A stretch of DNA of 64,000 bases from NCBI RefSeq assembly GCF_008629655.1, contig NZ_VWSG01000005.1:186001-250000 (forward strand), given 5' to 3'. Both the position numbers and the translations under genes were made by a program. The notes below the pieces were generated by a model. It saw only the letters and a program-made list of their open reading frames with translations. It did no database searches and was not told where the DNA came from. The DNA is from Paenimyroides baculatum. GTDB lineage: Bacteria > Bacteroidota > Bacteroidia > Flavobacteriales > Flavobacteriaceae. The first letter of the stretch is position 1. Every line of letters begins with the position of its first letter. Shown here piece by piece: positions 15,851 to 47,060 of this stretch.

Positions 15851-16092
15851 ATCAGTTTACTATAAAGTACAAAATCATTTTTTTCTATTGAATTAATATT
15901 TCAACTTAATTTCTTATACTCATTGAAAATTTACCCAATTAATGATATAACGTTACAAGAATAACTTAAGTATTAGAATATTAAATATTTTTGCTAATTT
16001 TTTTTCAAATATATAATTAAAAGAAATATGGTATAACATATTATTATTTTTTAATAAAAAATGAGGTGTATAGATTGTAAAATGAGGTATAT

Positions 16093-16126
16093 AAAAAAAG
16101 AGAAAACTTAGTTTTCTCTTTTTTTA
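16093..16126 (-). terminator. Terminator after the type B T9SS-protein gene
   Basis: AGAGAAAAC pairs with GTTTTCTCT around a TTA loop, with A- and T-runs outside. It lies 14 bases past the stop at 16139 on the minus strand. Confidence 0.85.
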
Positions 16127-16138
16127 TTTTAAATATTT

Positions 16139-18691
16139 TTATTTTACTTCTCTAATTAGTTGTATATATCCCGTTTTATAAGGATTATTCAACATAAACA
16201 CAGAATAAAAATAAGTACCCGATGGTAATATTTTACCATTGTTATCCTGTCCGTGCCATTCGTTCCTATAATTAGCTTTTGTGTAAACTGCATTACCGTA
16301 TCTATTATAAATAGTAAGCTTACTTGCAAAATATTCAGACAGATCCAAATAATCGTTCTCACCGTCGCTGTTTGGAGAAATACCTTTTGGAATTTCAAAA
16401 TGCGGAAGGTTAGTATCTGAACATCCAGTACATTTTTCAACAGGATCTACAATATAAATAGAACTTATATCCACATTATTTGTAAACATTCCTTTATGAT
16501 CTTTTGGAACTTTTAATTTAACCGTATAAATAACCTCTTGTTTTACATCTAACGAATTAATTATATCTACTAAATCGCCAGTTCCAGATTTTCCGTTTCC
16601 TTCCCAAGTCATTTCGGTTGTTTGATGCGGCATTGGGTCATTGACCTCAACATTCAATGCTTTTTGTGGACCGTTATTAACAACTTTTATGGTATAGTTT
16701 AAATATTCGTCTATAAAAAACAATTCTTTACCATCTGTTTTAAAAGCATCAATATCGGCAACAAATGCATCAACAGTAGCAGAGCTTTTGTTATTTTTCA
16801 GGTCAGTATCTTCCAAAACCCCCTTAGTTGTTGCAGTATTTACATAGTCGCCAGAATTTCCAATTCTACATTCTACAACCAAGGTTTCGCTTTGATAAGG
16901 AGCTAAAGATCCGATGTTCCACAGACCTGTTACATTATTATAAGTTCCTTTTGAAACAGTAGAATTAACATAAATTAATCCTGTTGGAAGTAATTCTGTA
17001 ACAGTAGCGTTAGGTTCTGCAAAATGTGGATTTAAGTTGGTTACTGTAATTGTAAAAGTAATATCTAAATCGTCTTGGAAAGTGCGTTCTTTTATAACTT
17101 CCAAGTCAGAACAAGGTATAACCTCCACATCTAAAGCTATAGATTTACCTGATAAACCACAATCTCTTCTCACTTGAACAGTATAGGATCCTGATTCTGT
17201 TACCTGTAATGAATTTCTTGTTGTAGTTTCGTATTCAATACCATCTTTGTGCCAAACATATTCACTATAACCTGATTCTGCTTCTAAAGTTACACTACAA
17301 TCACTGTTCCTTTTTGCAAACACAGGAGGGTCTGCTGCTTCACCAAACGAAGAGAAAAATGCCGACATAGAAAAACCACCTCCTTGCTGCACCAAACTAG
17401 TTGTTAACGGCATAGCTGATGTTATTATTAAATTCGCTGGATTATTAATCTGTATATTATCAAAAGTAATCAAATAGAAACCTGTAGCCCCAATAGGCAC
17501 TCTTAAATTACCGGTTACAACTTCAATATTCTGTCCGTTTACAAAAACCGGGACCGTGTTACTTTCAATTACGCAAAATCCAAAATAAGGAAGATTACCA
17601 TTGTTATAATCTATAAATTTTTTTGTCTGGATATTTAAAGACCCTGCGCAACCGCCAATTGGTAATACAGTAGATATATCAGTTTCACAATCAACAGCAG
17701 TACCAGAATAAACAATAACTGGATTTTCGGCAGTGATTAATGACGATGAAAACAAATCTATACCATTTCCGTGATAAAATGTATAAGAATCACCAGCTAA
17801 CCCCATATTTATATTGATAGGCGCACCAGCAACAGTTCCATTTGTATTAAAGTTTTGTATTGTAATAATGGTATCGTCTTTTGTTGTTACAATTGTAGTT
17901 TGCTCTGATCCATACCCTAATTGAGTTTGTTGTAGGGTTGGTACAGTTCCTTCTCCCCTCACTACCAGATATCTGATACCCAATGACTGTACTGGAGCTA
18001 TTTGATCAAACGTCCCATCTTCTCCATTTCCACCACATGTTTGGGGTATATCGCCGTAACTACCTGTATTCATTACTACACGTTTATCAGCAGTAACTAA
18101 AGAGCCTATTGGTGCATTAAACAAATAACTCTGACCTGTGTTTAATATAATAGTAGTAGCCGGTAAGTTAACAGTTGTATTATCTTCAGTTGCCATAACC
18201 GAATACACAGGCGCGCCTGTATCTAAACCTAAAACAGAATTTCTGTAATAGCCTACCCGGAATTCCAATCCTAAACCTTCCCGACCAAAACTTACCAATG
18301 AAGCATTTCCCTTAATATTTGCAACCGAACTCCCTGCCGTATCCGACGCAATATTCCGCAAATTTACAATAACAGGATGACTAGCTTCTATTATCAAACC
18401 TTTATCATTTTCAATCAAGTTTATTGCGTTCTTTGGAGAGGTTGCAATAGCACCTGCAAAACGGTAAGACACCGGATTGTTTTCTGTAAGGGTTAAAGTG
18501 GTAATAAAAGTTCCATCACTTTTACTGATATCAACAGTAACAGTTGTATTTGGTTCAACAGTACCAATAACAATTTCATTTGCGTTGTTCCAATATTGCC
18601 AAGGTGCTGGTGCAATATAATGTTGAGTATAGTATTGAGCAAAACTATTACTGGTGCAAAACAGTATAATAAGAAAATAAAAATATTTCAT
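16139..18691 (-). CDS. T9SS protein with IgGFc-binding-like N-terminus, DUF11 repeats and gliding-type C-terminal domain
   Basis: An 850-residue secreted protein. Signal peptide MKYFYFLIILFCTSNSFAQ is followed by a ~450-residue region resembling the IgGFc-binding-protein N-terminal domain (YIAPAPWQYWNNANEIVIGT). Next come an Ig-like domain (VTLEAESGYSEYVWHKDGIEY) and two DUF11-type repeats (ITFTITVTNLNP..., LNYTIKVVNNGPQ). The C-terminus (GISPNSDGENDYLDL...GTYFYSVFML) is the gliding-motility-associated type B sorting domain. It should be exported by T9SS and kept on the surface. The longer frame to 18742 adds 17 residues before the signal peptide, so I start at 18691. Confidence 0.88.
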   Translation of the reverse strand: MKYFYFLIILFCTSNSFAQYYTQHYIAPAPWQYWNNANEIVIGTVEPNTTVTVDISKSDGTFITTLTLTENNPVSYRFAGAIATSPKNAINLIENDKGLIIEASHPVIVNLRNIASDTAGSSVANIKGNASLVSFGREGLGLEFRVGYYRNSVLGLDTGAPVYSVMATEDNTTVNLPATTIILNTGQSYLFNAPIGSLVTADKRVVMNTGSYGDIPQTCGGNGEDGTFDQIAPVQSLGIRYLVVRGEGTVPTLQQTQLGYGSEQTTIVTTKDDTIITIQNFNTNGTVAGAPININMGLAGDSYTFYHGNGIDLFSSSLITAENPVIVYSGTAVDCETDISTVLPIGGCAGSLNIQTKKFIDYNNGNLPYFGFCVIESNTVPVFVNGQNIEVVTGNLRVPIGATGFYLITFDNIQINNPANLIITSAMPLTTSLVQQGGGFSMSAFFSSFGEAADPPVFAKRNSDCSVTLEAESGYSEYVWHKDGIEYETTTRNSLQVTESGSYTVQVRRDCGLSGKSIALDVEVIPCSDLEVIKERTFQDDLDITFTITVTNLNPHFAEPNATVTELLPTGLIYVNSTVSKGTYNNVTGLWNIGSLAPYQSETLVVECRIGNSGDYVNTATTKGVLEDTDLKNNKSSATVDAFVADIDAFKTDGKELFFIDEYLNYTIKVVNNGPQKALNVEVNDPMPHQTTEMTWEGNGKSGTGDLVDIINSLDVKQEVIYTVKLKVPKDHKGMFTNNVDISSIYIVDPVEKCTGCSDTNLPHFEIPKGISPNSDGENDYLDLSEYFASKLTIYNRYGNAVYTKANYRNEWHGQDNNGKILPSGTYFYSVFMLNNPYKTGYIQLIREVK

Positions 18692-18742
18692 AAATGAACT
18701 AAATTTTAACAAATATAATATTAGTTTTAAAAAAAGTATCAA

Positions 18743-19295
18743 TTATACATATTTTTTTACTGGTAAGAATATGATGTTTAGAGACATTGTGTAATTAAGA
18801 TTTTAACTATTTCATATTAAAATCTATCAAAATTAAATAATAAAGAATTATTTCAGTACTGTAAATAAGTATGAGGTATCTTATATTTTTTCTATTAAAT
18901 AGTAATTTATGTAATTATTTAGTTAAAATAATAAACAATAAACTTGTAAAAAAGTATACAAGTAACAGTATGGTAGATGAATTATGTATGGGAGTAGAAA
19001 AAAACTATTCTAATTTCTATAAGCATTATTATATTCTACACATTTGCAGCATCTACTGATAGAACTTACTGGAATAAAAAGACAAATTTCAAACACAAGT
19101 GAAGTAAAACATTATAAATGAAATAGAATTAATTATTTCTTCTTTAAACAGATTGACTCAATTGTGATTTTTAGCATTTTTATCAACAAAAATCACCTTT
19201 TAGATGTTAAAATTCAAAACAAGAGAGCTTTAACAGAATTTTATTAAATATAATGTTGTATTTTTATGGATTATGAACAACATATAATCTAAAAA
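18743..19295. other. AT-rich intergenic region between divergent T9SS-protein genes
   Basis: About 550 bases, strongly A/T-rich. A 62-codon open frame (18871-19059) has no coding character. No clear promoter matching TTTG-N19-TAnnTTTG was seen, though both flanking large genes must be driven from here. Confidence 0.5.
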
Positions 19296-22200
19296 ATGAA
19301 AGAGAAAATCAACCTTTTTCAACGTCAAATTAGTTGGCTTCTGCCCAAAGCTTTCTTAATTTTGATGTTACTTGCGTTTAATGAAACGCATTCACAGCCC
19401 CCCTGTACAGCAATTGCAACAAATTTCAGTGAAAATTTTGACACAACACCTACTGGTGGCACAACCAACCCTTCTGTACCAACTTGTTGGAGCTACATTG
19501 ACAATATGTCTACAACAGGTTACGGATACACTGCTACTTCCGCAACAACCGTAACATCATCTCCAAATTTTTTCAGGTTTTACAGAATGTGCTCTACAGC
19601 AAATGTAAACGAAGATTTAACACTTGTATCACCCGAAACAGTTAATCTTGGTAATGGAACAAAACAATTACGCTTTTACGCCACAGGAAATTCGGCAACT
19701 GTAACAAGTATTTTAGAAGTTGTAAGCTTAAACGGAAATACATCGGCTGCAACTGCAACTGTTTTAGCCACTTTTAATATTACAGGAACATCTTATAATG
19801 AATATATTGTTCCGTTACCTGCAACAACAGACGATTATTTTGGTTTTAGAGTACCTCACAACGGATCTGCTACAACAAACTATCCCTACGCTTTTATTGA
19901 TGATGTTTTTTATGAGGATTTAGAAACTTGTTTTTTTCCTACAAATGTTACTGTTTCTGCAATTACCCAAAATACAGCTACAATATCGTGGACTGCTTCG
20001 ATAGATCCAAATGTAACAACCTATGATTACGAAGTACGCTCAAGCGGTACTCCTGGTTCTGGAACAACCGGCTTAGCAGCGTCTGGTAACACCACTGGGG
20101 TTACAGCAAACATTACAGGCTTATCTCCGTCTGCAAATTATACAGTTTATGTACGCAGTGTTTGCGGGTCTGCTTCAACAGGCAGGTGGAATCCTGTTTC
20201 CGTTTCATTTTTTACCTTGTGCGGTGTGGTTACAGGTAATTTTTATGAAGGATTTGATACCACTGCAACCGGAACTACATCAAACAACAATTTCCCAAAT
20301 TGCTGGAGTTACGTTGATGATGTAACTACCACAGGTTACGGTTATGTAAATGCAGCAAACGCACAATCGGGCAGTAATTCGTATCGTTTATATAAAACCA
20401 ATACTACAGCAAATCAAGGACAGAATTTAATTTTAATTTCGCCCGAAACATCAAATTTAGGCAGCGGTACCAAACAATTGCGTTTTTCTGTTCGTGCCGG
20501 CACAGCTACGAATGTGAACAATTTAGAGATAGTAACTGCAAACGGCGACGATGCAAACGCTACATTTACCGTGATACGAACCATAAATGTTGACTATGTA
20601 ACTTATCAAGAATATATTATTCCGTTACCTGCGACTACCGACGATTACTTTGGTTTTAGATTGGCGCATAACGGAACAACAACGCTATCTACCATTCATC
20701 TAGATGATATTTATTACGAAGATTTGTCAGACTGTTTTTTCCCTACTGCTTTAACGGTAGGTAATATAACACAGACAGGTGCCGATTTGTCTTGGACAAC
20801 ATCTGTTTCAACAAGCGTAACCAGTTATGAATACGAAGTTCGATCTTCTGGCGCACCAGGATCAGGAACTGTTGGATTAGATGCTACGGGTATAGTTACG
20901 GGTACTTCAACAACAGTAACCGGCTTATCACCTTCGCTAGAATATACAGTCTACATTCGCAGTATTTGTGGAACTACAGAAGGAATTTGGAATCCCGTTT
21001 CGCAGACTTTTAATACCTTATGTGGAGTAGTTACCGGAAATTTATATGAAAATTTCGATACAACAGCTGCAGGATCAACATCTAATGCTACGTATCCTAA
21101 TTGTTGGAGTTATATAGATGATGTTACTTCAACAGGATACGGATATGTTTTGAATAGCACTACTTATGCACAATCACCAACCCAATCGTTCAGATTGTAC
21201 AGAACAAATTCTACTACAAATGCCGCAGAAGATCTTGTTTTAATTTCGCCTGAAACAGATAATCTTGGAAACGGCACTAAACAGTTACGTTTTTCGGTTA
21301 GATCTTACTTAACAAGCTACACAAACAAATTAGAAATAATATCGATATCGGATAATACCACAACTTTAAATGCAACAGTATTAGCAACGATATATAAAGA
21401 CGACACTTCTTACCAAGAATACATTGTTCCGTTACCTGCAACAACCGATGATTATTTTGCTTTTAGAATGGCATACAACGGTGTTACCGCTGCATCATCG
21501 GTAGTAATAGACGATGTTTACTACGAAGATTTATCGCCTTGTATTTTCCCAATGAACATAAAAACAAGCGCTATTACCGGAAACACAGCAACCATATCGT
21601 GGGATGCTTCTTTAGCAACAGGTGTAACCGGTTACGAATACGAAATACGTACTTCTGGCGATGCCGGTTCCGGAGCTGTAGGTTTAAAAACAAGCGGTAC
21701 CGTTACAGGAACATCTGTAAATATTATTGGTCTAGATCCTGCTACACAATATTTTGTTTATGTTCGAAGTATTTGTGGATCAACCAATGGCATCTGGACA
21801 ACATTTCCTGTTAACTTTTACACTTTATGCGGAATAGTTACCGGAAATTTCTATGAAGGTTTTGATACTACCGAAACAGGCACTACAACAAACAATAATT
21901 TCCCTTATTGTTGGAGTTATGTTGACGAAGTAGTTTCAACAGGATATGGCTATGTAAATGCTGTAAATGCACAATCACCAAGCAATTCTTACAGAATGTA
22001 TCGTACCAATACCGTTGCTAATCAAGGTCAGAACTTAAGGTTAATTTCACCTGAAACAGATAATTTAGGAAACGGTAATTGGGTAAAACAAGTACGTTTT
22101 TCGGTAAGAGGAACTAGTACTTCTCCTCAAATCTTAGAGGTATTCACGGCGAATGGCACTACATCGGCAGCTAATTTCACTGTATTAGATACTATTATTA

Positions 22201-25200
22201 TAAACAGTACAACTTATCAAGAATATACTGTGTATCTTCCACAAACAACAGATGATTTCTTTGGCTTTAACTTACCACATAACGGTACAACTATAGCAGG
22301 AACTGTTCATATTGATGATGTTTATTATGAAAACACCCCATCATGCAAACCTGTTTTATCTAAAGATATCATCTTAAATAACGTATCTAAAAATGGAGCA
22401 GCGATTAGTTGGATAGATAACATGAACCTTAGCAGTGTTTCTTATATGGTTGAAGTACGTGAAATTGGTAATCCGGGCGATCCTGGCGCATCATTCATTG
22501 GCACAACTGCTCCTGGTGTAACAACTATAAATGCTACAGCATTAAACCCTAATACCAAATACAGCGTGTATGTAAAAGTACTATGTTCTGCTACCGATGA
22601 AAGTATCTGGACTTATGGAGAAGATTTGCAAACATTATGTGACTATCCAGATTTTGTATCTTACACTACTTCGTTGGATCTATGTGGTTCTCAAAAAGCA
22701 GTTTTAGATGCAGTATTAACAGATCAAACAGCAGAAGCAGCTTGGTACGATACCGAAAATGACATCCTTCCATTATATATAGGTCAAAATTTTGTTTCAG
22801 ACAACGATGTAACTCAAGATAGGAGTTTTTGGTTAAGAAGCAGAAAGTTAGTAACAGATTCTGATGTACAAATTGGAGACGGAACATTAACTGCAAGTGG
22901 TAACCAAACTTTTCTTTATCATTTATGGGGAGGCTATAAACATCAATATATTTTTACTGCTGCAGAGTTAAGCGCAACAGGTTTAACAGCAGGACCTATT
23001 ACAGCTCTAAAATTTGATGTAGTAACTGTTGGAACACCTAACAGAAACGACTTCAGTATTTCATTAGGAACAACCACACAAACTGCAGCTACAACAACTC
23101 ATATTGATAATAACAATTTATCACAAGTTTATAGTAATGTTTCAGAAACTTTTGCTGTAGGTATTAAAACATTTACTTTCACAACTCCATACCTATGGGA
23201 CGGCGTAAGTAATATAGTAGTACAAATTGTTTGGAGTAACCAAAACACTGGCGGTGGTAGCACCGGTGGTAGTGGTGCCTTAAGGTATCATACAACAGAT
23301 ATAAACATGAATACCTACACTTGGGCTGACAATAGAACTGCTGCTGAATTTATAAGCACACTTACTGGGAACGTTAACGGCAGTGGAGGAACATCTACCA
23401 ATAGCGGTAGACCAAATACAGTATTTGTTGGAGTTGCCGGCTGTATTTCTCCAGCTATAGAAATTCCTATTACAGTGGCACCTAAACCGGCTTTTGAACT
23501 ATCTACAGATAAAGTTATTTCTTGTGATGGTGATATTTCGTCTCCTGTAACTATTACGACTAATCTTGGAGGATACGATACTTTTGTATGGACACCAAGT
23601 ACAGGAGTTAGTGGAGATGAAGTAAATGGCTGGACATTTAACACCAATCAAGAGCAGGAATATACTTTAACAGCAAGCCAATCAAACGGAATTTGCGAGC
23701 AGATAAAAACAGTTTTGGTTATTTCAGGCGTCAAACCAGAGCCAAACCCTAATTTAGCAACTGTTCATGATGTGTGTAAAAACACCGTTACCGAACTTAA
23801 TGTATTAGAAAGTTTACCCAATAGTGCTACAATTGGTAACTTAACAACAACTACAGCTCCAACGAGCGAAGTATCGGCTTTTGTACAAAGTTCAGCGTAT
23901 TCTAAGCAGCAATACATTTACAGGGCCGCTGAATTACAAACACAAGGCTTAACAACAGCTGGATATATTACAGAGTTGGCTTTTGAAACGATAAATTCAG
24001 GATCAAGCATGACCAATGACAATTATGCTGTCAAAATGATGTTAAGCCCAAACACAACTTTTCCTGACAATAATTTTGTTGACGGAAACTTCCATACGGT
24101 ATATTCAGCTACTACACATACACATACTTTTCAGGGCGCACAAAACATTGTGTTAGATCATCCTTTTTATTGGGACGGTCAATCGAATATCATTGTACAG
24201 ATTACGCAACAAGGTACAGGTGGCGGTAACAATGCAGAATCGTACTTTACTTCGGCAACAGGTAATGTAGGTATTTATAATTCAGGCGCTACTGATGCAG
24301 ATCCTGTAAGCGGAACTACAACTACCAATCGCCTTGATTTAAAATTTAGTTTTGAACAGTCAACCGCTACATGGTCGCCAGTATCAAACTTGTACTTAGA
24401 TGCAGCTACAACAATTCCATACACCAGCGGAACAAATGCTTTAACGGTTTATAGCATATCAAGCTTAGGTGGAACAAATGTTTATACGGCATTACTTACG
24501 GCTCCGAGTGGTTGTTCAACAAGTGTAGATTATACTATTAATGTTGCAGATGTTGGAACACCAGTTGTTCAAGGTCAAACATTTTGTGAGGCGACACCTG
24601 TAACCAATGTAGTTGTAACGGGACATCAAGGAGCAACATTAGTTTTTTATAATGATGCTACAGCAACTACCCCAATCACGACTATTTCACAGACAGGTAC
24701 TTATTACGTAGAAGCAGTTTTAGGGTCATGTAAATCGGCACGTATTCCGTTTACAGCCACCATTACACCATTAGGCTTACCTACAGCAACATTTACTCAG
24801 GTAATTTGTGGTACAGGTACAATTGCTGATTTAACAGCAACAGGTATAAACGGATCGCAAATAAACTGGTATGATTCTGCGACTTCTACAACTGTTCTGC
24901 CAAGTACGCAACCTTTAGTGGATAATACTACCTATTATGCAGCACAACAATTAGGAAATTGCGAATCGGGAAGAATCGCTATATTGGTAAGTATCAACAC
25001 AACAGCACTTCCAACATTAACACCGCAAACAATTACCGTATGCGGAGATTTAACTTATGGAAGTGTCGATCTAAATCAAATAAGTGGTTCAGATCTGTTA
25101 TGGTATCCATCAGCAACATCGCAAACACCAATACCAAATACCGATGCTATTGTCAGCGGAACTTACTATGTTTCACAGAAATTAAACAATTGTGAATCGG

Positions 25201-26177
25201 GTCGTGCTCAAATAACCGTAACAAGCGCTCAAAGTAATGTTCCTGCTCCAACTGCGGGTGTTCAAAACATTTGTGGTAGTGGTACGGTAGCACAATTATC
25301 GGCAAACATTCTACCTAATGCTATCGCACTTTGGTACAGCGACGCTACATCAACCACACCATTACAACTTACAGATGTATTGGTAAACGGAACTTATTAT
25401 TTGGCTCAGCAAGAAGATAACTGTATATCACCAAAAATACCGGTTGCAGTAAGAGTAATAAGTACTGTAGCTCCAGCGGTGTCTCCATTCGTATTGTGTG
25501 AAGGTTCAACTGTGGCAGATTTAGATCTTCCCGTAACATCTGGTACATCGTACAAATGGTATATCAACAGCACATCGACTACCGAATTGCCATTAACAGA
25601 TATTTTAAACAGCGGATATTATTTTGTTGTTCGCGTTGAAAACGGTTGTGAATCTGGCAAAACACAAGTACAAGTTACCATTAACAGCAGACCCGAAGGT
25701 CCAGTAGGTGCATCGCCACAGACCTTTACAGATTATGCAGAAATAAGTAATCTGATTATGGATGAACCTAATGTGATCTGGTATATAACTTATGACGATG
25801 CAATAAACGGCATAAATCCGTTAAACCAAGATATGCCTTTGGTGGATGGAACAACCTATTATGCAGTAATTATCGGTGCAAACGGATGCCCGAGTTTACC
25901 AACACCGATTGAAACAATTATTGTTTTAGGTGTAAACGATTTTGATTTAAGCAAGTTGAAATATTACCCTAACCCAGTAAACGATTTGTTAACAATTACT
26001 TATACTGATGCAATTACAAATGTAGAAGTGTTTGATTTAAACGGACGTTTAGTAATAACCCGTAATTTTGACAATCAAACTGTTCAGTTAGATTTTAGCA
26101 ACTTAAGTTCTGGAACTTATATGCTGAATATTAAAACAAAAGAAAATAGTCAATTTGTGAAAATTGTAAGAAAATAA
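19296..26177 (+). CDS. Giant T9SS-secreted modular protein (cleaved-adhesin-like and Fn3 repeats)
   Basis: A 2293-residue surface protein. After a signal peptide (about residues 10-35) come four tandem modules of ~268 residues. Each joins a cleaved-adhesin/MAM-like beta domain ('FYEGFDTT...NCWSYVDD...LISPET.NLG.GTKQLRFSVR...YQEYIVPLPATTDDYFGFR...IDDVYYED') to a fibronectin type III domain ('TISWTAS...YEYEVRSSG...YTVYVRSICG'). Two copies of a beta domain (QYIFTAAELSATGL... and QYIYRAAELQTQGL...) separated by an Ig-like stretch follow, then several Ig-like repeats shared with the 11042-15850 protein. A type A T9SS sorting domain ends it (KYYPNPVNDLLTITY...FVKIVRK). Adhesion or substrate binding is inferred from the modules. 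Confidence 0.9.
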   Translation: MKEKINLFQRQISWLLPKAFLILMLLAFNETHSQPPCTAIATNFSENFDTTPTGGTTNPSVPTCWSYIDNMSTTGYGYTATSATTVTSSPNFFRFYRMCSTANVNEDLTLVSPETVNLGNGTKQLRFYATGNSATVTSILEVVSLNGNTSAATATVLATFNITGTSYNEYIVPLPATTDDYFGFRVPHNGSATTNYPYAFIDDVFYEDLETCFFPTNVTVSAITQNTATISWTASIDPNVTTYDYEVRSSGTPGSGTTGLAASGNTTGVTANITGLSPSANYTVYVRSVCGSASTGRWNPVSVSFFTLCGVVTGNFYEGFDTTATGTTSNNNFPNCWSYVDDVTTTGYGYVNAANAQSGSNSYRLYKTNTTANQGQNLILISPETSNLGSGTKQLRFSVRAGTATNVNNLEIVTANGDDANATFTVIRTINVDYVTYQEYIIPLPATTDDYFGFRLAHNGTTTLSTIHLDDIYYEDLSDCFFPTALTVGNITQTGADLSWTTSVSTSVTSYEYEVRSSGAPGSGTVGLDATGIVTGTSTTVTGLSPSLEYTVYIRSICGTTEGIWNPVSQTFNTLCGVVTGNLYENFDTTAAGSTSNATYPNCWSYIDDVTSTGYGYVLNSTTYAQSPTQSFRLYRTNSTTNAAEDLVLISPETDNLGNGTKQLRFSVRSYLTSYTNKLEIISISDNTTTLNATVLATIYKDDTSYQEYIVPLPATTDDYFAFRMAYNGVTAASSVVIDDVYYEDLSPCIFPMNIKTSAITGNTATISWDASLATGVTGYEYEIRTSGDAGSGAVGLKTSGTVTGTSVNIIGLDPATQYFVYVRSICGSTNGIWTTFPVNFYTLCGIVTGNFYEGFDTTETGTTTNNNFPYCWSYVDEVVSTGYGYVNAVNAQSPSNSYRMYRTNTVANQGQNLRLISPETDNLGNGNWVKQVRFSVRGTSTSPQILEVFTANGTTSAANFTVLDTIIINSTTYQEYTVYLPQTTDDFFGFNLPHNGTTIAGTVHIDDVYYENTPSCKPVLSKDIILNNVSKNGAAISWIDNMNLSSVSYMVEVREIGNPGDPGASFIGTTAPGVTTINATALNPNTKYSVYVKVLCSATDESIWTYGEDLQTLCDYPDFVSYTTSLDLCGSQKAVLDAVLTDQTAEAAWYDTENDILPLYIGQNFVSDNDVTQDRSFWLRSRKLVTDSDVQIGDGTLTASGNQTFLYHLWGGYKHQYIFTAAELSATGLTAGPITALKFDVVTVGTPNRNDFSISLGTTTQTAATTTHIDNNNLSQVYSNVSETFAVGIKTFTFTTPYLWDGVSNIVVQIVWSNQNTGGGSTGGSGALRYHTTDINMNTYTWADNRTAAEFISTLTGNVNGSGGTSTNSGRPNTVFVGVAGCISPAIEIPITVAPKPAFELSTDKVISCDGDISSPVTITTNLGGYDTFVWTPSTGVSGDEVNGWTFNTNQEQEYTLTASQSNGICEQIKTVLVISGVKPEPNPNLATVHDVCKNTVTELNVLESLPNSATIGNLTTTTAPTSEVSAFVQSSAYSKQQYIYRAAELQTQGLTTAGYITELAFETINSGSSMTNDNYAVKMMLSPNTTFPDNNFVDGNFHTVYSATTHTHTFQGAQNIVLDHPFYWDGQSNIIVQITQQGTGGGNNAESYFTSATGNVGIYNSGATDADPVSGTTTTNRLDLKFSFEQSTATWSPVSNLYLDAATTIPYTSGTNALTVYSISSLGGTNVYTALLTAPSGCSTSVDYTINVADVGTPVVQGQTFCEATPVTNVVVTGHQGATLVFYNDATATTPITTISQTGTYYVEAVLGSCKSARIPFTATITPLGLPTATFTQVICGTGTIADLTATGINGSQINWYDSATSTTVLPSTQPLVDNTTYYAAQQLGNCESGRIAILVSINTTALPTLTPQTITVCGDLTYGSVDLNQISGSDLLWYPSATSQTPIPNTDAIVSGTYYVSQKLNNCESGRAQITVTSAQSNVPAPTAGVQNICGSGTVAQLSANILPNAIALWYSDATSTTPLQLTDVLVNGTYYLAQQEDNCISPKIPVAVRVISTVAPAVSPFVLCEGSTVADLDLPVTSGTSYKWYINSTSTTELPLTDILNSGYYFVVRVENGCESGKTQVQVTINSRPEGPVGASPQTFTDYAEISNLIMDEPNVIWYITYDDAINGINPLNQDMPLVDGTTYYAVIIGANGCPSLPTPIETIIVLGVNDFDLSKLKYYPNPVNDLLTITYTDAITNVEVFDLNGRLVITRNFDNQTVQLDFSNLSSGTYMLNIKTKENSQFVKIVRK
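19419..22640 (+). repeat. Four tandem coding repeats of about 805 bp
   Basis: Inside the 2293-aa gene the motif pair 'FDTT...CWSY' plus Fn3 recurs, with later units opening near 20219, 21019 and 21826. The units differ clearly at DNA level, so the duplication is not recent. Confidence 0.85.
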
Positions 26178-26895: not shown

Positions 26896-27204
26896 ATGAT
26901 TAAAATACTACTCTTATTGATAGGATACCCCTATCAGTATGTTGATAGCTTTGTTTGGAAAAGTAATAAAATGTACCGATCATTAGTACTTAACAGAATA
27001 CTTAAACAGCAGAAAGAAATAGGTTTCAATAAAGAAGAACTGGAGAACAAATATGGACCGGCAAATAAAATATACAGTTCAGGTGCGTGTAGCTATGATG
27101 TACCCAAATTGTGACTACGTAAAAAGAAATGTGTACTTAACTTCTATTTTGACCTGGAAGATAAGGTTTTTTAAATCAGGCGAAAATACACCGTACTTTA
27201 TTAA
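26896..27204 (+). pseudogene. Inactivated paralogue of the 102-aa gene at 40249
   Basis: Aligned without gaps to the intact copy at 40249-40557, this reading frame has the same length (102 residues) and the same start (MIKILLLLIGYP). It carries two nonsense changes: TGA at codon 73 where the intact copy has TGG, and TAA at codon 93 where it has CAA. Sequence after both stops still matches (LRKKKCVLNFYFDLEDKVF, then IRRKY). The lack of indels points to fairly recent loss. It is followed by two degenerate copies of the candidate guide-RNA scaffold, as the intact gene is followed by the array. Confidence 0.85.
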
Positions 27205-27283
27205 TTCGATGATCTGCCGTTAACATGTCAACTTATGGATGACATGGAATACTACAATCCTTAAGAATAATCCGGTACAACTA

Positions 27284-27373
27284 CTAAAAAATGAAGTTTC
27301 CTCAGCATGCTTTTCACATTCAGTAAGTGTCAATGAACAACCTCGCCTTAAAGGTGTATAGGCACCCTAAAAA
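27284..27373 (-). ncRNA. Degenerate copy A of the candidate guide-RNA scaffold
   Basis: Read on the minus strand it keeps the first hairpin (AGGGTG-CCTATA-CACCTT, with one wobble pair) and a weak last hairpin (ATGT-GAAAA-GCAT). The variable segment GCTGAGGAAACTTCA and a T-run follow. The middle GTGAG/CTCAC pairing is damaged. No Cas12f-like gene lies next to it. Probably a remnant of a second locus; expression is unknown. Confidence 0.45.
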
Positions 27374-27430
27374 TATTTTTTCTAAACGTTTCACGATTCC
27401 CTAACGAACAGCTTTTACACCGTAAATTGA

Positions 27431-27520
27431 TAAAAATTCCCGATCTTTAAGTTGTATATGCTTACGCATTCAGTGAGTACAAACCACAACAGCACCTCAC
27501 GCGTGTCTAGACACCCACAA
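27431..27520 (-). ncRNA. Copy B of the candidate guide-RNA scaffold
   Basis: On the minus strand the first hairpin has changed sequence but still pairs (GTGTC-TA-GACAC). The GTGAG/CTCAC pairing is intact, and the last hairpin is ATGC-GTAA-GCAT with a GNRA loop. It is followed by the variable segment CAACTTAAAGATCGGGAA and a T-run. Changes that keep the pairing favour a functional RNA structure. Its variable segment resembles that of unit 1 at 40618-40708. Confidence 0.5.
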
Positions 27521-40248: not shown

Positions 40249-40557
40249 ATGATTAAAATACTACTTTTATTGATAGGCTACCCCTATAAGGATGTTGATA
40301 GCTTTGTCTGGCAAAATAATAAAATGTACCGGTCTTTAGTACTTAACAAAATACTTAAACAGAAGAAAGAAATAGGTTTTAGTAAAAAAGAACTTGAGAA
40401 CAAATACGGACCTGCAAATACCATATACAATTCAGGTGCATGGAGCTATGATGTGCCCAAATTGTGGCTAAGAAAAAAGAAATGCGTACTTAACTTCTAT
40501 TTTGACTTGGAAGATAAGGTTTTTCAAATAAGGCGAAAATACCGCGTGCGTTATTAA
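40249..40557 (+). CDS. Conserved small protein next to the guide-RNA array
   Basis: A 102-residue basic protein of unknown function. It begins with a short hydrophobic stretch (MIKILLLLIGYPY) and has a C-terminal part (KELENKYGPANTIYNSGAWSYDVPKL, then CVLNFYFDLEDKVFQIRRKYR) whose layout recalls the BamE/SmpA fold: a 'lGpP' turn, a Trp-Tyr strand, then an 'l.f.Fd.d.kV' strand. That likeness is weak. A full-length paralogue with two stop codons lies at 26896. Both copies sit beside scaffold repeats, so the gene seems to travel with them. It runs towards the array, whose RNAs would be read from the other strand. Confidence 0.6.
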   Translation: MIKILLLLIGYPYKDVDSFVWQNNKMYRSLVLNKILKQKKEIGFSKKELENKYGPANTIYNSGAWSYDVPKLWLRKKKCVLNFYFDLEDKVFQIRRKYRVRY

Positions 40558-40617
40558 TTCTATGATCTACGCTTACCATTTCGACAACTTAGCTGAATAA
40601 CCAATCCACCTTTTGAT

Positions 40618-40708
40618 ACAAATAACTATCTTAAAGTTGTATATGCCTACTACATTCCGCGAATGTTAACCAACAACCGTACCTTACGGGTGTACAGGCA
40701 CCCTCAAT
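40618..40708 (-). ncRNA. Candidate guide RNA 1 (outermost, diverged)
   Basis: On the minus strand: first hairpin GGGTG-CCTGTA-CACCC, a damaged middle pairing, a weak last hairpin (ATGT...GCAT), then the variable segment CAACTTTAAGATAGTTA. No clear T-run follows. This is the most diverged of the four tandem copies and the furthest from the Cas12f-like gene. Its variable segment shares CAACTT-AAGAT with copy B at 27431. Confidence 0.45.
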
Positions 40709-40866: not shown

Positions 40867-40957
40867 TAAAAAATTTTTCGGTTCAGCTATATATGCTTGC
40901 ACATTCAGTGAGTGTTAACCAACAACCTCACCATACGGGTGTATAGGCACCCTCAAT
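40867..40957 (-). ncRNA. Candidate guide RNA 2
   Basis: Minus strand: GGGTG-CCTATA-CACCC hairpin, GTGAG/CTCAC pairing, and ATGT-GCAA-GCAT hairpin with a GNRA loop. The variable segment TAGCTGAACCGAAAA and a T-run follow. The structured part matches units 3 and 4 almost exactly. Confidence 0.65.
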
Positions 40958-41116: not shown

Positions 41117-41206
41117 AGAAAAATTTTCGGTTTCGCTATATATGCTTGCACATTCAGTGAGTGTTAACCAACAACCTCGCCTTACGGGTGTATAGGCACC
41201 CTCAAT
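41117..41206 (-). ncRNA. Candidate guide RNA 3
   Basis: Same layout as unit 2, with ATGT-GCAA-GCAT as last hairpin and one mismatch in the middle pairing (GCGAG/CTCAC). The variable segment is TAGCGAAACCGAAAA, followed by a T-run. Confidence 0.65.
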
Positions 41207-41365: not shown

Positions 41366-41456
41366 TAAAAAATCTTTCGGTTTTGCTATATATGCTTTCG
41401 CATTCAGTGAGTGTTAACCAACAACCTCACCTTACGGGTGTATAGGCACCCTCAAT
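41366..41456 (-). ncRNA. Candidate guide RNA 4, directly after the Cas12f-like gene
   Basis: Begins about 10 bases after the stop codon at 41467. Minus strand: hairpin 41436-41451 (GGGTG/CACCC), pairing 41407-41411 with 41426-41430 (GTGAG/CTCAC), and hairpin 41392-41403 (ATGC-GAAA-GCAT, GNRA loop). The variable segment TAGCAAAACCGAAAGA and a T-run follow. A structured RNA placed just past the effector gene, ending in a variable segment, is the arrangement known for TnpB omega RNAs and Cas12f guides. It could be processed from the sigma-dCas12f mRNA. Confidence 0.7.
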
Positions 41457-41466
41457 ATTTTGTTTA

Positions 41467-42564
41467 TCAGGCAGTAATCAATTCAATACCCGCCTTTTCA
41501 GCTTTATATTTTATCTTGCTCATCAGGTCGTAATAACTCCAGTTACGCAACACGAACTGTTCTTCTTTAGCTATTTCCGAATTTTGCTGCATATCCATCA
41601 ATACCAGCGTCGCTGCCTGGTGTTTTACACAAAAATCAACCAGCCTCCGGCTGTACTCATGCAACCGGCTGGCTATATAATTACTTTCCAAACTTTTAAA
41701 CCTATCAAGTGCCTTTAATTTTCGTTCCTTTCCTTTACCACCCCTACAATAGGTAACTGCTGCCTTGGTTCGGCTGTGTGCTGCCTGTATTGCCAGCCTT
41801 CGGTGTAAAAACTCTTCCTTATTACCAATCATCAAACTGTTCCTGCCTATGCGTACAAAAATGGGATGTTCTAATGACAATGAAGCTTCTGCTACTACAG
41901 CGGGTTTCAGGCGGTGCTTTTCTTTAGGTATTTCAAAAACCGGCATCCAGAAGATTTTCCCTTTTTCAAGCTTCATTCTTGAGGAGCAAAGTTTAACCTT
42001 CCCGTCAACCACCTGTTGTAATAATGCGTGCTTGTCTGTAAAATCCCTACCCAGATAAGTTTTAAACGGAAGCGAGAACAAAAGGAAACAAAATGCCTTT
42101 TTCTCCTCGTTATACTGCAGCCGTTTAATGCCTGGCACGCCGAAAAGGAACCCCTTGTCGGGTTTGAAATTATCTAAAGATCGCTTACCTGTAACATATT
42201 CTATATAGTATCTATTGAACTTTTTGATCAGCTCATTATTAAGTGAATTAAATATATTGGTAGGTATTTCCCCTTTAAAACGGTTACTAAGCATTCTGTA
42301 GGTACTACTGATGTGTGAACATTTAAGCATGCCGTTTGGATCTTTCTTTTCATCTGCCAACTTATACTTAACACCTTCAGACAGGTATAAAAAATCTTTA
42401 ATCATCGACTGCACATACAGGTGGCTCATGATAAGGTTTGCTGAACGCATGCACCTGTCCTGCCAAGTATATAATTTGTGCCAAACTTCTTTTTTTTCCT
42501 CAGCTGTTGGCAGATCAATGGTTATCTGTATTTTCCGGGCTAGTTTCATGGTTTCCTTACTCAT
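41467..42564 (-). CDS. Nuclease-dead Cas12f/TnpB-like RNA-guided protein (dCas12f)
   Basis: A 365-residue protein. The N-terminal half (EVWHKLYTWQDRCMRSANLI, KYKLADEKKDPNGMLKCSHISSTYRML) is the helical recognition part of Bacteroidota Cas12f relatives. The C-terminal half has the RuvC-like core: GKGKERKLKALDRFKSLESN (about 277-295), LHEYSRRLVDFCVKHQAATL, and NWSYYDLMSKIKYKAEKAGI. The expected RuvC-I Asp falls on Ser in VAEASLSLEHPI (near 228), the RuvC-II Glu on Met in LVLMDMQ (near 323), and the protein ends before RuvC-III and the zinc finger. It should bind RNA and DNA but not cut. The start at 42564 lies 10 bases after the sigma stop; the longer frame to 42696 would overlap the sigma gene and lacks family likeness. 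Confidence 0.85.
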   Translation of the reverse strand: MSKETMKLARKIQITIDLPTAEEKKEVWHKLYTWQDRCMRSANLIMSHLYVQSMIKDFLYLSEGVKYKLADEKKDPNGMLKCSHISSTYRMLSNRFKGEIPTNIFNSLNNELIKKFNRYYIEYVTGKRSLDNFKPDKGFLFGVPGIKRLQYNEEKKAFCFLLFSLPFKTYLGRDFTDKHALLQQVVDGKVKLCSSRMKLEKGKIFWMPVFEIPKEKHRLKPAVVAEASLSLEHPIFVRIGRNSLMIGNKEEFLHRRLAIQAAHSRTKAAVTYCRGGKGKERKLKALDRFKSLESNYIASRLHEYSRRLVDFCVKHQAATLVLMDMQQNSEIAKEEQFVLRNWSYYDLMSKIKYKAEKAGIELITA

Positions 42565-42574
42565 AATAACAAAT

Positions 42575-43342
42575 TTAAAGTGATTGTATTTTATGCTGCT
42601 GCGCAAACTTATATGCTGCCATAAATTCTTCGTGCACCTGCGTTTGGGAAAGGTTGAGTTGTTCGGCGATGGCTGCAAATGAAAATTTCTTTTCACAGCG
42701 CAGCTTTAAAACCTGTGACTGCCTTTCGCTCACAGCGTTCTGCTCCAATTCTGGGTTAAACTTCTTTTCGTTCCTGTTTCTTACAGCAACTATTTTTTTT
42801 ATATCTTCAATTGCCCTATTTACCTCGTCTACCGTTTGTCTGGTATTTTTTCCCATCACCTGCGCAATTTGTTTATATCTGAAACCATATTTCAGGCAAA
42901 GATTGATAAGTTGCCTTCGTTCCGGCTTAATGAGCGGCAGTACGTTGGTTATCAAATCGAACAATTTTTGTTGCGATTCCTGATACTTCAGGTTTTCAAT
43001 TCCATCCGCGGGATCGTAACCTGCAAGATAGTTCTGAAAATTTTCATAGCTTTCCAAGGAATTTACCGTTCTAAAAAATTTATTTCTTGGTTTGTAATAA
43101 TGCGACAAACAGGATCTTTTCATAACATATTGCAAGAAAAACAGTATATGCATTGGGTCTTGTATTTTTTCGCGACAATCCCATAACCTTAAAAAAGTAT
43201 CCTGTACCAGGTTTTCCACCTCATACTCATCATCTATTATTCTTTTACCCAACCAAAAGATTCTTCTGCTGTATTGGGCATGAATTTTTTCTAATGCAGC
43301 AGGGTCGCCTTTTTTTAATAATTCAAAGTTTTGTTGTGGCAT
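42575..43342 (-). CDS. ECF-type sigma factor encoded with dCas12f
   Basis: A 255-residue sigma-70-family protein. Region 2 spans about 17-82 (IHAQYSRRIFWLGKRIIDDEYEVENLVQDTFLRLWDCREKI), the core-polymerase-binding part. Two helix-turn-helix segments of region-4 type follow: one at ~130-183 (LIKPERRQLINLCLKYGFRYKQIAQVMGKN) and a second at ~204-248 (SERQSQVLKLRCEKKFSFAAIAEQLNLSQTQVHEEF). ECF factors normally have one. No anti-sigma gene lies next to it. The dCas12f gene starts 10 bases downstream on the same strand, so the two are surely co-expressed and probably partners in RNA-guided transcription. Confidence 0.85.
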   Translation of the reverse strand: MPQQNFELLKKGDPAALEKIHAQYSRRIFWLGKRIIDDEYEVENLVQDTFLRLWDCREKIQDPMHILFFLQYVMKRSCLSHYYKPRNKFFRTVNSLESYENFQNYLAGYDPADGIENLKYQESQQKLFDLITNVLPLIKPERRQLINLCLKYGFRYKQIAQVMGKNTRQTVDEVNRAIEDIKKIVAVRNRNEKKFNPELEQNAVSERQSQVLKLRCEKKFSFAAIAEQLNLSQTQVHEEFMAAYKFAQQHKIQSL

Positions 43343-44571: not shown

Positions 44572-45549
44572 CTATGACAAAAGCAAGCTATTTTTATATA
44601 TAGTTTGATTTTTAATTAGTGCATAAATACGATGAATAATCTTGTTCCTAACATCGTTTAAAACTGACATTTTATTTTTTCCTTCTTCCACTTTACGATG
44701 ATAATAAATAGCTAAGTCATTTTTTAATCGAATGGCGCTCATTGCTGCTAAGTGTAATAATTTTTTTAAGTCTTTGTCTGCCATGGACGAAACTTTTGGT
44801 TTTCTCCTTATAGAAGTTCCAGACTGAAAATCAAATGGAGCTATTCCTGCATAACAAGCCATTTGCCTTGGACTATTAATATTTGTAAAGCCATCTGTTT
44901 TTATCAGCATATTAAATGCTAAAACTTTTCCTACTCCTGGTATAGATCGTATTCTATCATAATGATTATTAAGTTCTTCATCTTTAAAAATTAATTGATA
45001 TATTTTGTTTTCTATTTCACTAATTTGCTTGGTTAGTACATCTATGAGCTTAGTGTTTAATCGTAAAATACCTTTATCAATACTTGAACTTAAAAATAGT
45101 TCATCTTGTGATTGAGCTAATAATCCTGCACGTATTTTAACTCTATGCTTTCTTTCTGCATTTAATAATTTAATTTTTTCAATGGCATGAGAATTTGGTT
45201 TCCATTGCTGAAGATCCATATAGTTTTTTGATAAAAATAAAGCGATGCGTTCACTGTCAACTTTATCGTTCTTCCCTCTAACTAGCCCTATACTTCTTTT
45301 CAAATGAAAAGGATTGATCACATAAATAGCATAAGAATAATGCATCAGTACTCTGTAAAGAATAGCATTAAATCTACCTGTGTTTTCCATTCCAATTATA
45401 ATCTCGTGTTTCTTGTTAAGCTTTCTAAAAAACGCTTTGATTGCTTCTTCGGTATTAAGAATGTTTTCATAATGATTAGATCCATTGTCTTGAATGCAGA
45501 TATCTAATGTTAATTTACTCACATCAATACCAATAACTATTTTTTCCAT
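44572..45549 (-). mobile_element. IS110-family transposase
   Basis: A 325-residue DEDD transposase of the IS110 family. The N-terminal RuvC-like domain starts with IGIDVSKLTLDICIQD, has the conserved Glu in GMENTGRF and the later Asp in GKNDKVDSERIALFL. The C-terminal domain has IRSIPGVGKVLAFNML and the GIAPFDFQSGTSIRRKPKVS segment with the catalytic Ser. Length is typical and the frame is intact. IS110 elements lack normal inverted repeats, so exact ends could not be set. The noncoding DNA upstream of the gene (45550-45725) is where a bridge RNA would be expected. Confidence 0.9.
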
Positions 45550-45725: not shown

Positions 45726-46775
45726 TTTCTACAATTTAATATTTTTTAAATCTAAAGGAATCCAGTGGAAGATCTCTTTCGATTCTCAATATCCATTGTC
45801 CGTAATTCTAACTTTTCGGTTTTCCTGTACTTTTCATGCACGAAAAGTACCAAAAGTGCTTTTATTGCGGTCAAGCTTTTAACGGTCAAAATCTTGTTTG
45901 TTGCCTAGTCCATCGGAACGATCGCTCCGCGACCCGATGTTCCTTAACGCCAACTTCACCGTTTTGACGCTCGTTTAAATCTTAATACCGCTTGGTACAT
46001 AGTCCATCTCTGTTATCAATTAAAATCCTCTTGTTGAACAATTGGGGATTTTAAAGCGACATTATTTTTTCAGCGAGTGTCAACTCTTTGAATAAAAGGT
46101 ATAGATCAAATACGACCCAAGGGAGCGAAATCGCAGATTCATGAATACCATATCATTAAATAAGCGATATTGAATAATATTTGATTGCCTTTTCGAAAAG
46201 TTTGTTGACCGTTGAAAAAATAGAGTCTTGATCTTTTGTAACTTTTGTATCAAGACAAAAGTTAGGTAAAGAGTTTTAAAAACTAATTTTCTTCAATTTG
46301 TGAATCTGGTTTCAATGAACTCAATCTCAAAGAACAAATTGTATTTATCGTTTAAAAAGCATTCTTGCAAACGGTGTTTTCGCCGTTTTTTTTTTTATTT
46401 GTTATTTTTAACTGTTTTACTTCTTAAACACAGTAATTTTCACTTTTTTAAATTTTCCGTATTTTGTGCCTAAACTCCAATATTTAGAATAAGCCACTAT
46501 TTTTTACGAAAATGTAATTCATGAGCTATCAATACTGTATCCATACAGTATCTACCTAGTATTCCCACTGTTGAGATTTAGAAAATTTTTCGGTTGACCC
46601 GTCCTAAAATAACTATACATATTTTTAATTAAATCCTGTTATAGTTATACACCTATTAATCTTATTAATAGTTCAACGATTAGACGATTAAACAAATAAA
46701 CAATTCAACAAATCTCGTCCCGACCCTCGGGATCCACGATTAAACAACTAACGATTAAACGATTAAACAAATAGT
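45726..46775. other. Intergenic DNA with dispersed repeats and short tandem motifs
   Basis: No gene recognised. It contains hairpin-rich stretches (TACTTTTCATGCACGAAAAGTA near 45829-45850; ATCTTTTG...AGACAAAAG near 46229-46262), a possible insertion-sequence end (GACCCGTCCTAAAATAACTATAC near 46594, with AACTATA/TATAGTT arms), a TCCCGA-CCC-TCGGGA palindrome near 46718, and repeated ACGATTAAAC motifs (46675-46770). Confidence 0.45.
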
Positions 46776-46777
46776 AA

Positions 46778-46985
46778 TTAGTGCCTGTACACAGCACCAT
46801 AACCGGCAAAAGGTTGAGTAAAAAGCAAAAAAGGCGTGAAAACTCAACAATATCCGAACAGAGGTACTGGTATACCGGGGAACAGATAAGTGAGCTCACG
46901 CCATGGTCGTGAGCTAATCTACTTATCATCTCGTTCCTTAAAATTACCAGTTTTCTGTTCGAGACTCTAAGCAATAGCTTAATAT
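46778..46985. ncRNA. Candidate structured RNA or long imperfect inverted repeat
   Basis: A 107-base imperfect hairpin (46855-46961) has five helices in register: CGAACAGA/TCTGTTCG, ACTGGTA/TACCAGT, GGAAC/GTTCC, GATAAGT/ACTTATC, AGCTCACG/CGTGAGCT, closed by a 7-base loop. That is 35 paired bases. Two smaller hairpins flank it on one side (GTTGAGT/ACTCAAC at 46813-46848; GTGC/GCAC near 46781-46798). It is far richer in G+C than its surroundings. The rod shape recalls 6S-type RNA; a miniature mobile element is the other option. Strand and identity are unknown. Confidence 0.45.
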
Positions 46986-47060
46986 TTTCTATATAAAGTA
47001 TTGCAAATTTACAGTTAATAATTAACTATAAAAATCAAATGTAAACATTAATATTATAAT

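Follow-up and report, generated by a model that had tools for sequence, protein, structure and literature searches.

A sigma factor–dCas12f operon with four guide-RNA units in Paenimyroides baculatum: a probable RNA-guided transcription system, with an attenuator-like leader as its candidate target

The locus described here lies in a stretch of 64,000 nucleotides (nt) of Paenimyroides baculatum DNA (Flavobacteriaceae; contig NZ_VWSG01000005.1, positions 186,001 to 250,000), called the window throughout and numbered from its first base. Its core is an operon on the minus strand encoding a sigma factor of the extracytoplasmic function (ECF) type and a predicted nuclease-dead Cas12f (dCas12f), with an array of guide-RNA (gRNA) units directly behind. 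An initial annotation made from the letters alone had proposed a complete ECF sigma factor, a Cas12f/TnpB-like protein 10 bases further on and a guide-RNA array after it, and all three are found in that order. The features are as follows.

42575..43342, minus strand: ECF sigma factor, 255 amino acids (aa), with region 2 and two region-4-like stretches (Pfam; PDB 9n9q_C)
41467..42564, minus strand: dCas12f, 365 aa, predicted nuclease-dead (PDB 9n9c_A over the full length; RuvC residues lost)
41385..41453, minus strand: gRNA scaffold U4, nearest dCas12f (scaffold model R2); guide from 41384
41135..41203, minus strand: gRNA scaffold U3 (model R2); guide from 41134
40886..40954, minus strand: gRNA scaffold U2 (model R2); guide from 40885
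40636..40705, minus strand: gRNA scaffold U1 (model R2); guide from 40635, unlike those of U2–U4
27451..27516, minus strand: decayed gRNA scaffold (a) (model R2)
27307..27368, minus strand: decayed gRNA scaffold (b) (model R2)

The sigma gene is separated by 10 bases from that of dCas12f, which runs on the minus strand from its ATG at 42564 to a stop codon ending at 41467. Pfam finds Sigma70_r2 (3e-7), the region 2 that had been claimed, and Sigma70_r4_2 (2e-9) in the sigma protein, and its residues 4–253 match chain C of PDB 9n9q, named ‘RpoE’, with E = 2e-82. Residues 1–363 of the 365 in dCas12f match the ‘Nuclease-deactivated Cas12f’ of PDB 9n9c (9n9c_A), 9n9m, 9n9o and 9n9q (E = 1e-160). 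A Pfam scan of this protein gave no match, and its match to NCBIfam guided_TnpB (2.5e-14) is under that model's own cut-off. The homology search proposed in the initial annotation for both proteins thus ends in near full-length matches to separate chains of one solved entry, 9n9q.

In the alignment with active Cas12f the GVDLG of RuvC-I is aligned with EASLS in the window protein, the RuvC-II Glu is replaced, and the C-terminus stops at the point where the active proteins go on. With its RuvC catalytic residues lost the protein is predicted to be nuclease-dead, as had been supposed. An active Cas12f/TnpB nuclease was considered and rejected, since these residues are not intact. The predicted structure is poor in its N-terminal half (mean predicted local distance difference test score 55) and trustworthy in the RuvC half only, for which the best solved matches are 9n9m and 9n9c, both titled dCas12f–gRNA complexes; the comparison was made with this half alone, and a family missing from its match list is still possible.

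Matches to dCas12f occur in 23 of 397 genomes of the family, and are full-length in 17; the protein search gave 995 homologues at E ≤ 0.001, of which the best 120 are listed. The present genome has four full-length copies, that of the window and the sister copies C1, C23 and C30. The closest relatives considered are L009, from a Myroides metagenome-assembled genome (98% identity in dCas12f), and L010 from Paenimyroides ummariense (72%). The sigma gene is directly upstream of dCas12f in all 26 loci compared (20 loci of relatives, the four own copies, L009 and L010), which together with the pairing of the chains in 9n9q upholds the link that had been postulated between the two proteins. The distance from the aligned end of sigma to the start of dCas12f is 7–34 bases in 25 of them; in L133, one of three operons of genome G094, it is 159 bases, and a gRNA scaffold (9372–9435) lies in between. 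We count the window locus as a member of the dCas12f–sigmaE family because of the homology to the 9n9q chains, the loss of the RuvC residues and the four guide units.

The array contains a 249-nt unit three times and its conserved 61-nt part four times, at a spacing of 249–250 nt. The scaffold extends past the most obvious repeat; its 3′ end is ...GCATATATAGC or ...GCATATACAAC, not ...GAATG. An alignment of 31 sequences gives the consensus GAGGGTG..TACACCC..AAGGTGAGG..CACTCACT.AATGC....GCATATACAAC with three hairpins, and the four units of the array score 71–88 bits against the covariance model R2. The guide starts directly after ...CATATACAAC or ...ATAGC, a position fixed by comparison with L009, L010, the 20 relatives' loci and the three sister copies. 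The guides of U2, U3 and U4 are near-identical (..AACCGAAA.ATTTTT..), while that of U1 differs. Genome-wide the model finds 11 places (one at E = 0.09), all by a dCas12f copy or at 27.3–27.5 kb of the window. In 40 further genomes it is positive in 16 of the 16 with dCas12f, an expected result as each of these helped to build the model, and in none of the 24 without.

Two other readings of the array were rejected. A guide starting right after GAATG has 14, 91 and 2 matches against 7, 127 and 1 for a reversed-pattern control, the array included; these are chance places, and the two best outside the array look like coding sequence. A CRISPR (clustered regularly interspaced short palindromic repeats) array has repeats of ∼24–40 nt separating unrelated spacers; here the units are 249–250 nt with a 70-nt scaffold and the guides of U2–U4 are near-identical. 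No adaptation genes were present among 15 neighbouring proteins scanned, which are part of the frames.

Some scaffolds lie elsewhere. Judged by eye, the decayed pair (26900–27516) adjoins an apparent second version of a 102-aa gene that flanks the main array (40249–40705), and the two regions look like an array-plus-gene duplication, now degraded. Contigs L286 and L292 of genome G329 carry scaffold copies where a dCas12f match was not found; these may be guides that stand alone and act in trans.

Upstream of the sigma gene, 19 of the 26 loci contain a conserved structured leader of ∼165 nt (16 of the 20 relatives' loci, L009, L010 and the window). Searching with the leader model did not find it at the own copies C1, C23 and C30, nor in cis at L147, L149, L150 and L152; in L147, L149 and L152 sigma is preceded by a leader of a second type, marked by a GCCTTCCC..GGGAAGGC hairpin. 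The consensus fold of 18 leaders has 30 base pairs, of which 10 have changes on both sides. Across 79 leaders a switch arm, GGCGTGGGCTC, pairs with an upstream arm as an apical helix (547/553 cells, 11 double changes), and the same arm pairs alternatively with GAGTTCCACGCC, located before a U-run, as a terminator helix (774/790 cells, 26 double changes). None of 2000 permutations, which leave relatedness in place, attained either value, and 78 of the 79 leaders have the U-run. One arm with two alternative partners, a U-run and compensatory changes are what define a transcription attenuator, and on this comparative evidence the leader is predicted to be one. A TAnnTTTG box lies within the 110 nt that surround the start of the leader in 73 of the 79, compared with 102 of 1580 control windows, and 69 of the boxes are at −36 to −32. 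This box is given as the flavobacterial sigma-A −7 box in a part of PMC9723704. No Rfam family reached its gathering score for the leaders of the window, seven relatives' loci and L136, and 6S RNA, considered as an identity for the leader, was rejected for want of an Rfam match. A literature search found no description of the leader, in a search that did not reach dCas12f–sigmaE papers; section 19 of PMC9723704, for its part, does not mention a SusC leader of this kind.

In many relatives the guides match at the switch arm. In 10 of the 20 relatives' loci, from nine genomes, a guide matches a site within 400 nt upstream of sigma at 13–16 of 16 bases (L134–L140, L142, L143 and L147, with L140 and L142 being near-identical and from one genome). 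In control windows of the same loci the score of the ten best guides was reached once only (1/74, for L147), and no more than 1 in 200 shuffled guides equalled it. When the complete loci were searched on both strands, nine of these sites were recovered, each on the strand of the operon; that of L143 falls below the cut. Nine of the ten sites are within the one covarying leader. The tenth, of L147, is in the second type, which three guides of that locus fit at 12–13 of 16 bases. The match begins at guide base 1, directly behind the scaffold, and spans ∼14–17 bases in several genera; some relatives' guides begin GCGTGGGCTC... In fixed register, guides and leaders agree at 13 or 14 of 14 bases in 8 of 16 genomes.

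Guides also fit leaders of other genes. Within one genome, guides match the leader of a gene for a SusC-type protein at 16 of 16 bases in G094 (L241) and 15 of 16 in G322 (L237) and G125 (L243). The guide of G370 fits the SusC leader L244 at 15 of 16, exceeding the 13 of its own operon, and that of G063 fits L211 at 15 of 16, where only short frames follow the leader on a short contig. In G144 one guide and the SusC leader L249 share an odd run, GCGTGACAT, although over 16 bases the score is 11 at L249 and 12 at its own operon.

Leaders occur in 64 of the 397 genomes, comprising all 17 with full-length dCas12f and 47 of the 380 others. The first count is favoured by the model, whose input was leaders linked to dCas12f, but G063, G100 and G301, among the 17, lack a leader at their dCas12f loci and gave no input to it. 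A frame follows at 1.5 kb or less in 62 leader–gene pairs (some leaders counted twice from overlapping stretches, those with no such frame uncounted); in 31 of them the main frame has 900–1030 aa, and the five of these frames that were scanned are all SusC-type (Plug and CarbopepD_reg_2). Sigma–dCas12f operons make up nine pairs, and a ∼111-aa protein family or other genes the rest. For ten further leaders found with the model the next frame is in every case 994–1021 aa long; three of these leaders are in two genomes of the same genus that lack dCas12f. Leaders L214, L218, L238, L240 and L242 (G019 and G248) precede ∼111–123-aa proteins of unknown function.

Nuclease-dead Cas12f homologues linked to sigma-E factors in Bacteroidota have recently been reported to recruit RNA polymerase to guide-matched sites, and the solved system reportedly starts transcription. 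Our interpretation begins from what is directly observed, namely the gene order, the protein homology, the loss of catalytic residues in the alignment, the scaffold and the guide start, together with the guide matches in about half of the relatives' loci. The locus is likely to be a dCas12f–sigmaE system, a sigma–dCas12f operon with four guide units, acting in RNA-guided transcription, with a proposed bypass of an attenuator leader. The guide RNA would place dCas12f on the DNA, and the sigma factor bound to it would bring RNA polymerase so that transcription starts downstream; guides, not promoter boxes, would choose the genes that are switched on. The guide target would be the switch arm of the attenuator. 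A start ∼46 bp downstream of the target, which we take to be the distance, would give a transcript without the switch arm that is blind to the attenuator. From +46 the median fold of the 79 leaders is −0.9 kcal/mol, compared with −30.8 from the switch arm, and the 3′ arm of the terminator begins 53–58 nt past guide base 1. By such guided starts the system may control both its own expression and that of nutrient-uptake operons, bypassing the leader's own signal. On balance the evidence leans slightly towards this wiring in full, in which guides address the switch arm in the leaders of both SusC operons and the system's genes, giving a positive feedback loop and a nutrient-uptake regulon, and in which the leader is a cis-regulatory RNA that has not been described.

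Several results weigh against this reading. In the other 10 of the 20 relatives' loci the guides remain below 13 of 16 near the sigma gene. Guides score equally well against the leaders of 2–8 of 15 other genomes (all 15 for G162), so that co-evolution genome by genome, or genome-specific tuning, is unsupported. All 79 leaders have a G immediately before the matched site, as a 5′-G rule that we assume for dCas12f targets would require; the same G is, however, part of the terminator stem, and need not therefore be a targeting motif, which makes the attenuator wiring slightly less likely. From +46, 18 of the 79 leaders retain a fold of −3 kcal/mol or lower. The leader is present in 45 genomes (of the 64) with no dCas12f match of any length, and so has a role of its own. 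The rest of these points come from the present genome, where the relevant features of the window are the following.

47004..47011, minus strand: candidate −7 box of the leader, TAAATTTG (TAnnTTTG search)
46838..46967, minus strand: conserved structured leader, attenuator-like (leader model R1, 127 bits, E = 3e-35; fold −51 kcal/mol)
46886..46901, minus strand: switch arm of the leader, the guide-matched place in relatives; the G before it is at 46902
46827..46845, minus strand: terminator 3′ arm GAGTTTTCACGCC and U-run
46582..46597, minus strand: match of the U2 guide, an unproven candidate target at the start of a dispersed repeat
44572..45549, minus strand: IS110-family transposase between leader and operon (Pfam)

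The window leader, which helped to build R1, has an upstream pairing that is more stable than its terminator pairing over the full length. It is located 3.5 kb upstream of the operon, with IS110 and repeats in between; the extra DNA with IS110 (∼45769–44399) is a gap in the alignment with L009. A second leader of this genome (C12) is 3.9 kb upstream of a SusC–SusD pair, and a third, C26, which is diverged (17.5 bits, E = 0.015), is 2.8 kb upstream of another SusC/D pair, so that in all three places leader and operon are 2.8–3.9 kb apart. The window guides fit the window, C12 and C26 leaders at 5 of 14 bases at most. Allowing three mismatches, the U2–U4 pattern has 36 + 41 = 77 matches in the genome (three being the array) compared with 34 + 23 = 57 for the reversed-pattern control, a moderate excess, and U1, with 15 + 13 = 28 compared with 23 + 21 = 44, has fewer than its control. 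Seven of the U2–U4 places were inspected: five are inside open frames or adjoin them, and the other two belong to intergenic repeats. Guides of the sister copies are near control (C23b 2 + 2 compared with 2 + 3; C30 1 + 1 compared with 1 + 0); those of C1, C23a and the 27.4-kb place were scanned in the window and the three sister loci.

Within the window, outside the array, just one site both fits an array guide at 15 of 16 bases or better and has a 5′-G, the U2 match at 46597 on the minus strand; 100 shuffled guides gave on average 0.00 at 15 of 16, and 0.04 at 14 of 16 with G. We give this match no weight because it comes from trials with nine guides and coincides with the start of a dispersed repeat. 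In a comparison of nine guides with three leaders, the second guide of C23 fits the C26 SusC/D leader in the same register, at 10 of 14 bases and at 9 of the first 10; none of 63,990 10-mers on the plus strand of the window is as good. The proposal that guides choose the genes is thus supported by the guide-matched sites in relatives, and falls short in the window, where the four guides are without a convincing target.

The window copy may be partly disconnected from its leader, as its own guides miss the leader and IS110 lies in the interval between leader and operon. Carried further, it would be a relic in which IS110 and repeats have separated leader and operon and drift has altered the four guides, leaving activity to sister copies alone, such as C23. 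We consider this unlikely, though by a lesser degree than the explanations below; the IS110 gap relative to L009, array guides with no clear target, the two decayed scaffolds and the C23–C26 fit at 9 of 10 bases all speak for it, but both reading frames are intact, the L009 dCas12f is 98% identical, and the four scaffolds still score 71–88 bits.

A dispersed intergenic repeat, ACCGAAAA, has nine genome matches, the four longest being upstream of two sigma–dCas12f and two SusC/D operons. It was tried as a second target and rejected; when it is aligned to the array units, only a few of 36 pairs score outside the range given by 100 shuffles, and a G precedes the site in the window copy only. The repeat starts ACCGAAAAATTTTC and is present at 46597–46370 of the window and in C23, C26, C12, C3 and C2 of this genome, with other copies adjoining transposase-like and helix-turn-helix genes.

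If the guides act on RNA, pairing with the leader transcript and shifting terminator against antiterminator, the result would be attenuator control in trans with no transcription start at the sites. A guide with the sequence of the switch arm could pair with both partners of that arm, and the leader is structured and exists in genomes that lack dCas12f. This scheme would leave the sigma factor superfluous, even though both proteins are chains of one solved complex, and the sites are on the strand of the operon and preceded by G, as targeting of DNA needs (the G can be explained by the stem); we regard it as improbable. It is slightly more improbable that the matching guides are pieces of leader copied by chance and unused as guides. 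Conservation of the leader sequence where dCas12f is lacking would fit such capture, but the matches run from guide base 1 behind the scaffold over ∼14–17 bases in several genera, and one G144 guide shares the odd run GCGTGACAT with L249 (scores of 11 there and 12 at its own operon). Least probable of all is repression, in which dCas12f with its guides would sit on the leader and block polymerase from the −7 box in the manner of TldR while sigma performs another task: the target does lie between the candidate promoter and the gene, and RNA-guided repressors of this kind are described in part of PMC13418256, but a sigma gene adjoins dCas12f in all 26 loci, and the two proteins match chains of a single complex.

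Elsewhere in the window, 11042–26177 contains three very large genes for surface proteins with C-terminal domains of the type IX secretion system type, one of which has SprB repeats.

These loci bear on what the natural guides of dCas12f–sigmaE systems target, and why. A leader family addressed by many natural guides would be an addition to the known systems; as targets, the leaders would make up a regulon that can be tested directly, close a feedback loop and explain mechanistically why the site is chosen, and this genome offers four natural copies of the operon with different guides.

In the near full-length homology of both its proteins the window locus resembles the dCas12f–sigmaE complexes of PDB 9n9c, 9n9m, 9n9o and 9n9q, and differs from them in its four tandem 249-nt guide units and the four operon copies in one genome. 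Compared with the active Cas12f nucleases (9nzo, 9nzr, 8hr5 and 7wju), dCas12f of the window is alike in sequence and fold of the RuvC half, but is without the RuvC-I Asp, the RuvC-II Glu and the C-terminal part. The sigma gene adjoins dCas12f in 26 of 26 loci of the present type. We know of no dedicated sigma factor for the TldR repressors. These are likewise nuclease-dead RNA-guided regulators, and derive from TnpB, as set out in a part of PMC13418256. The leader for its part resembles the structured 5′ cis-regulatory RNAs of flavobacteria presented in sections of PMC9723704, where structured leaders, some with no Rfam match, and a TAnnTTTG −7 box are found as they are here.

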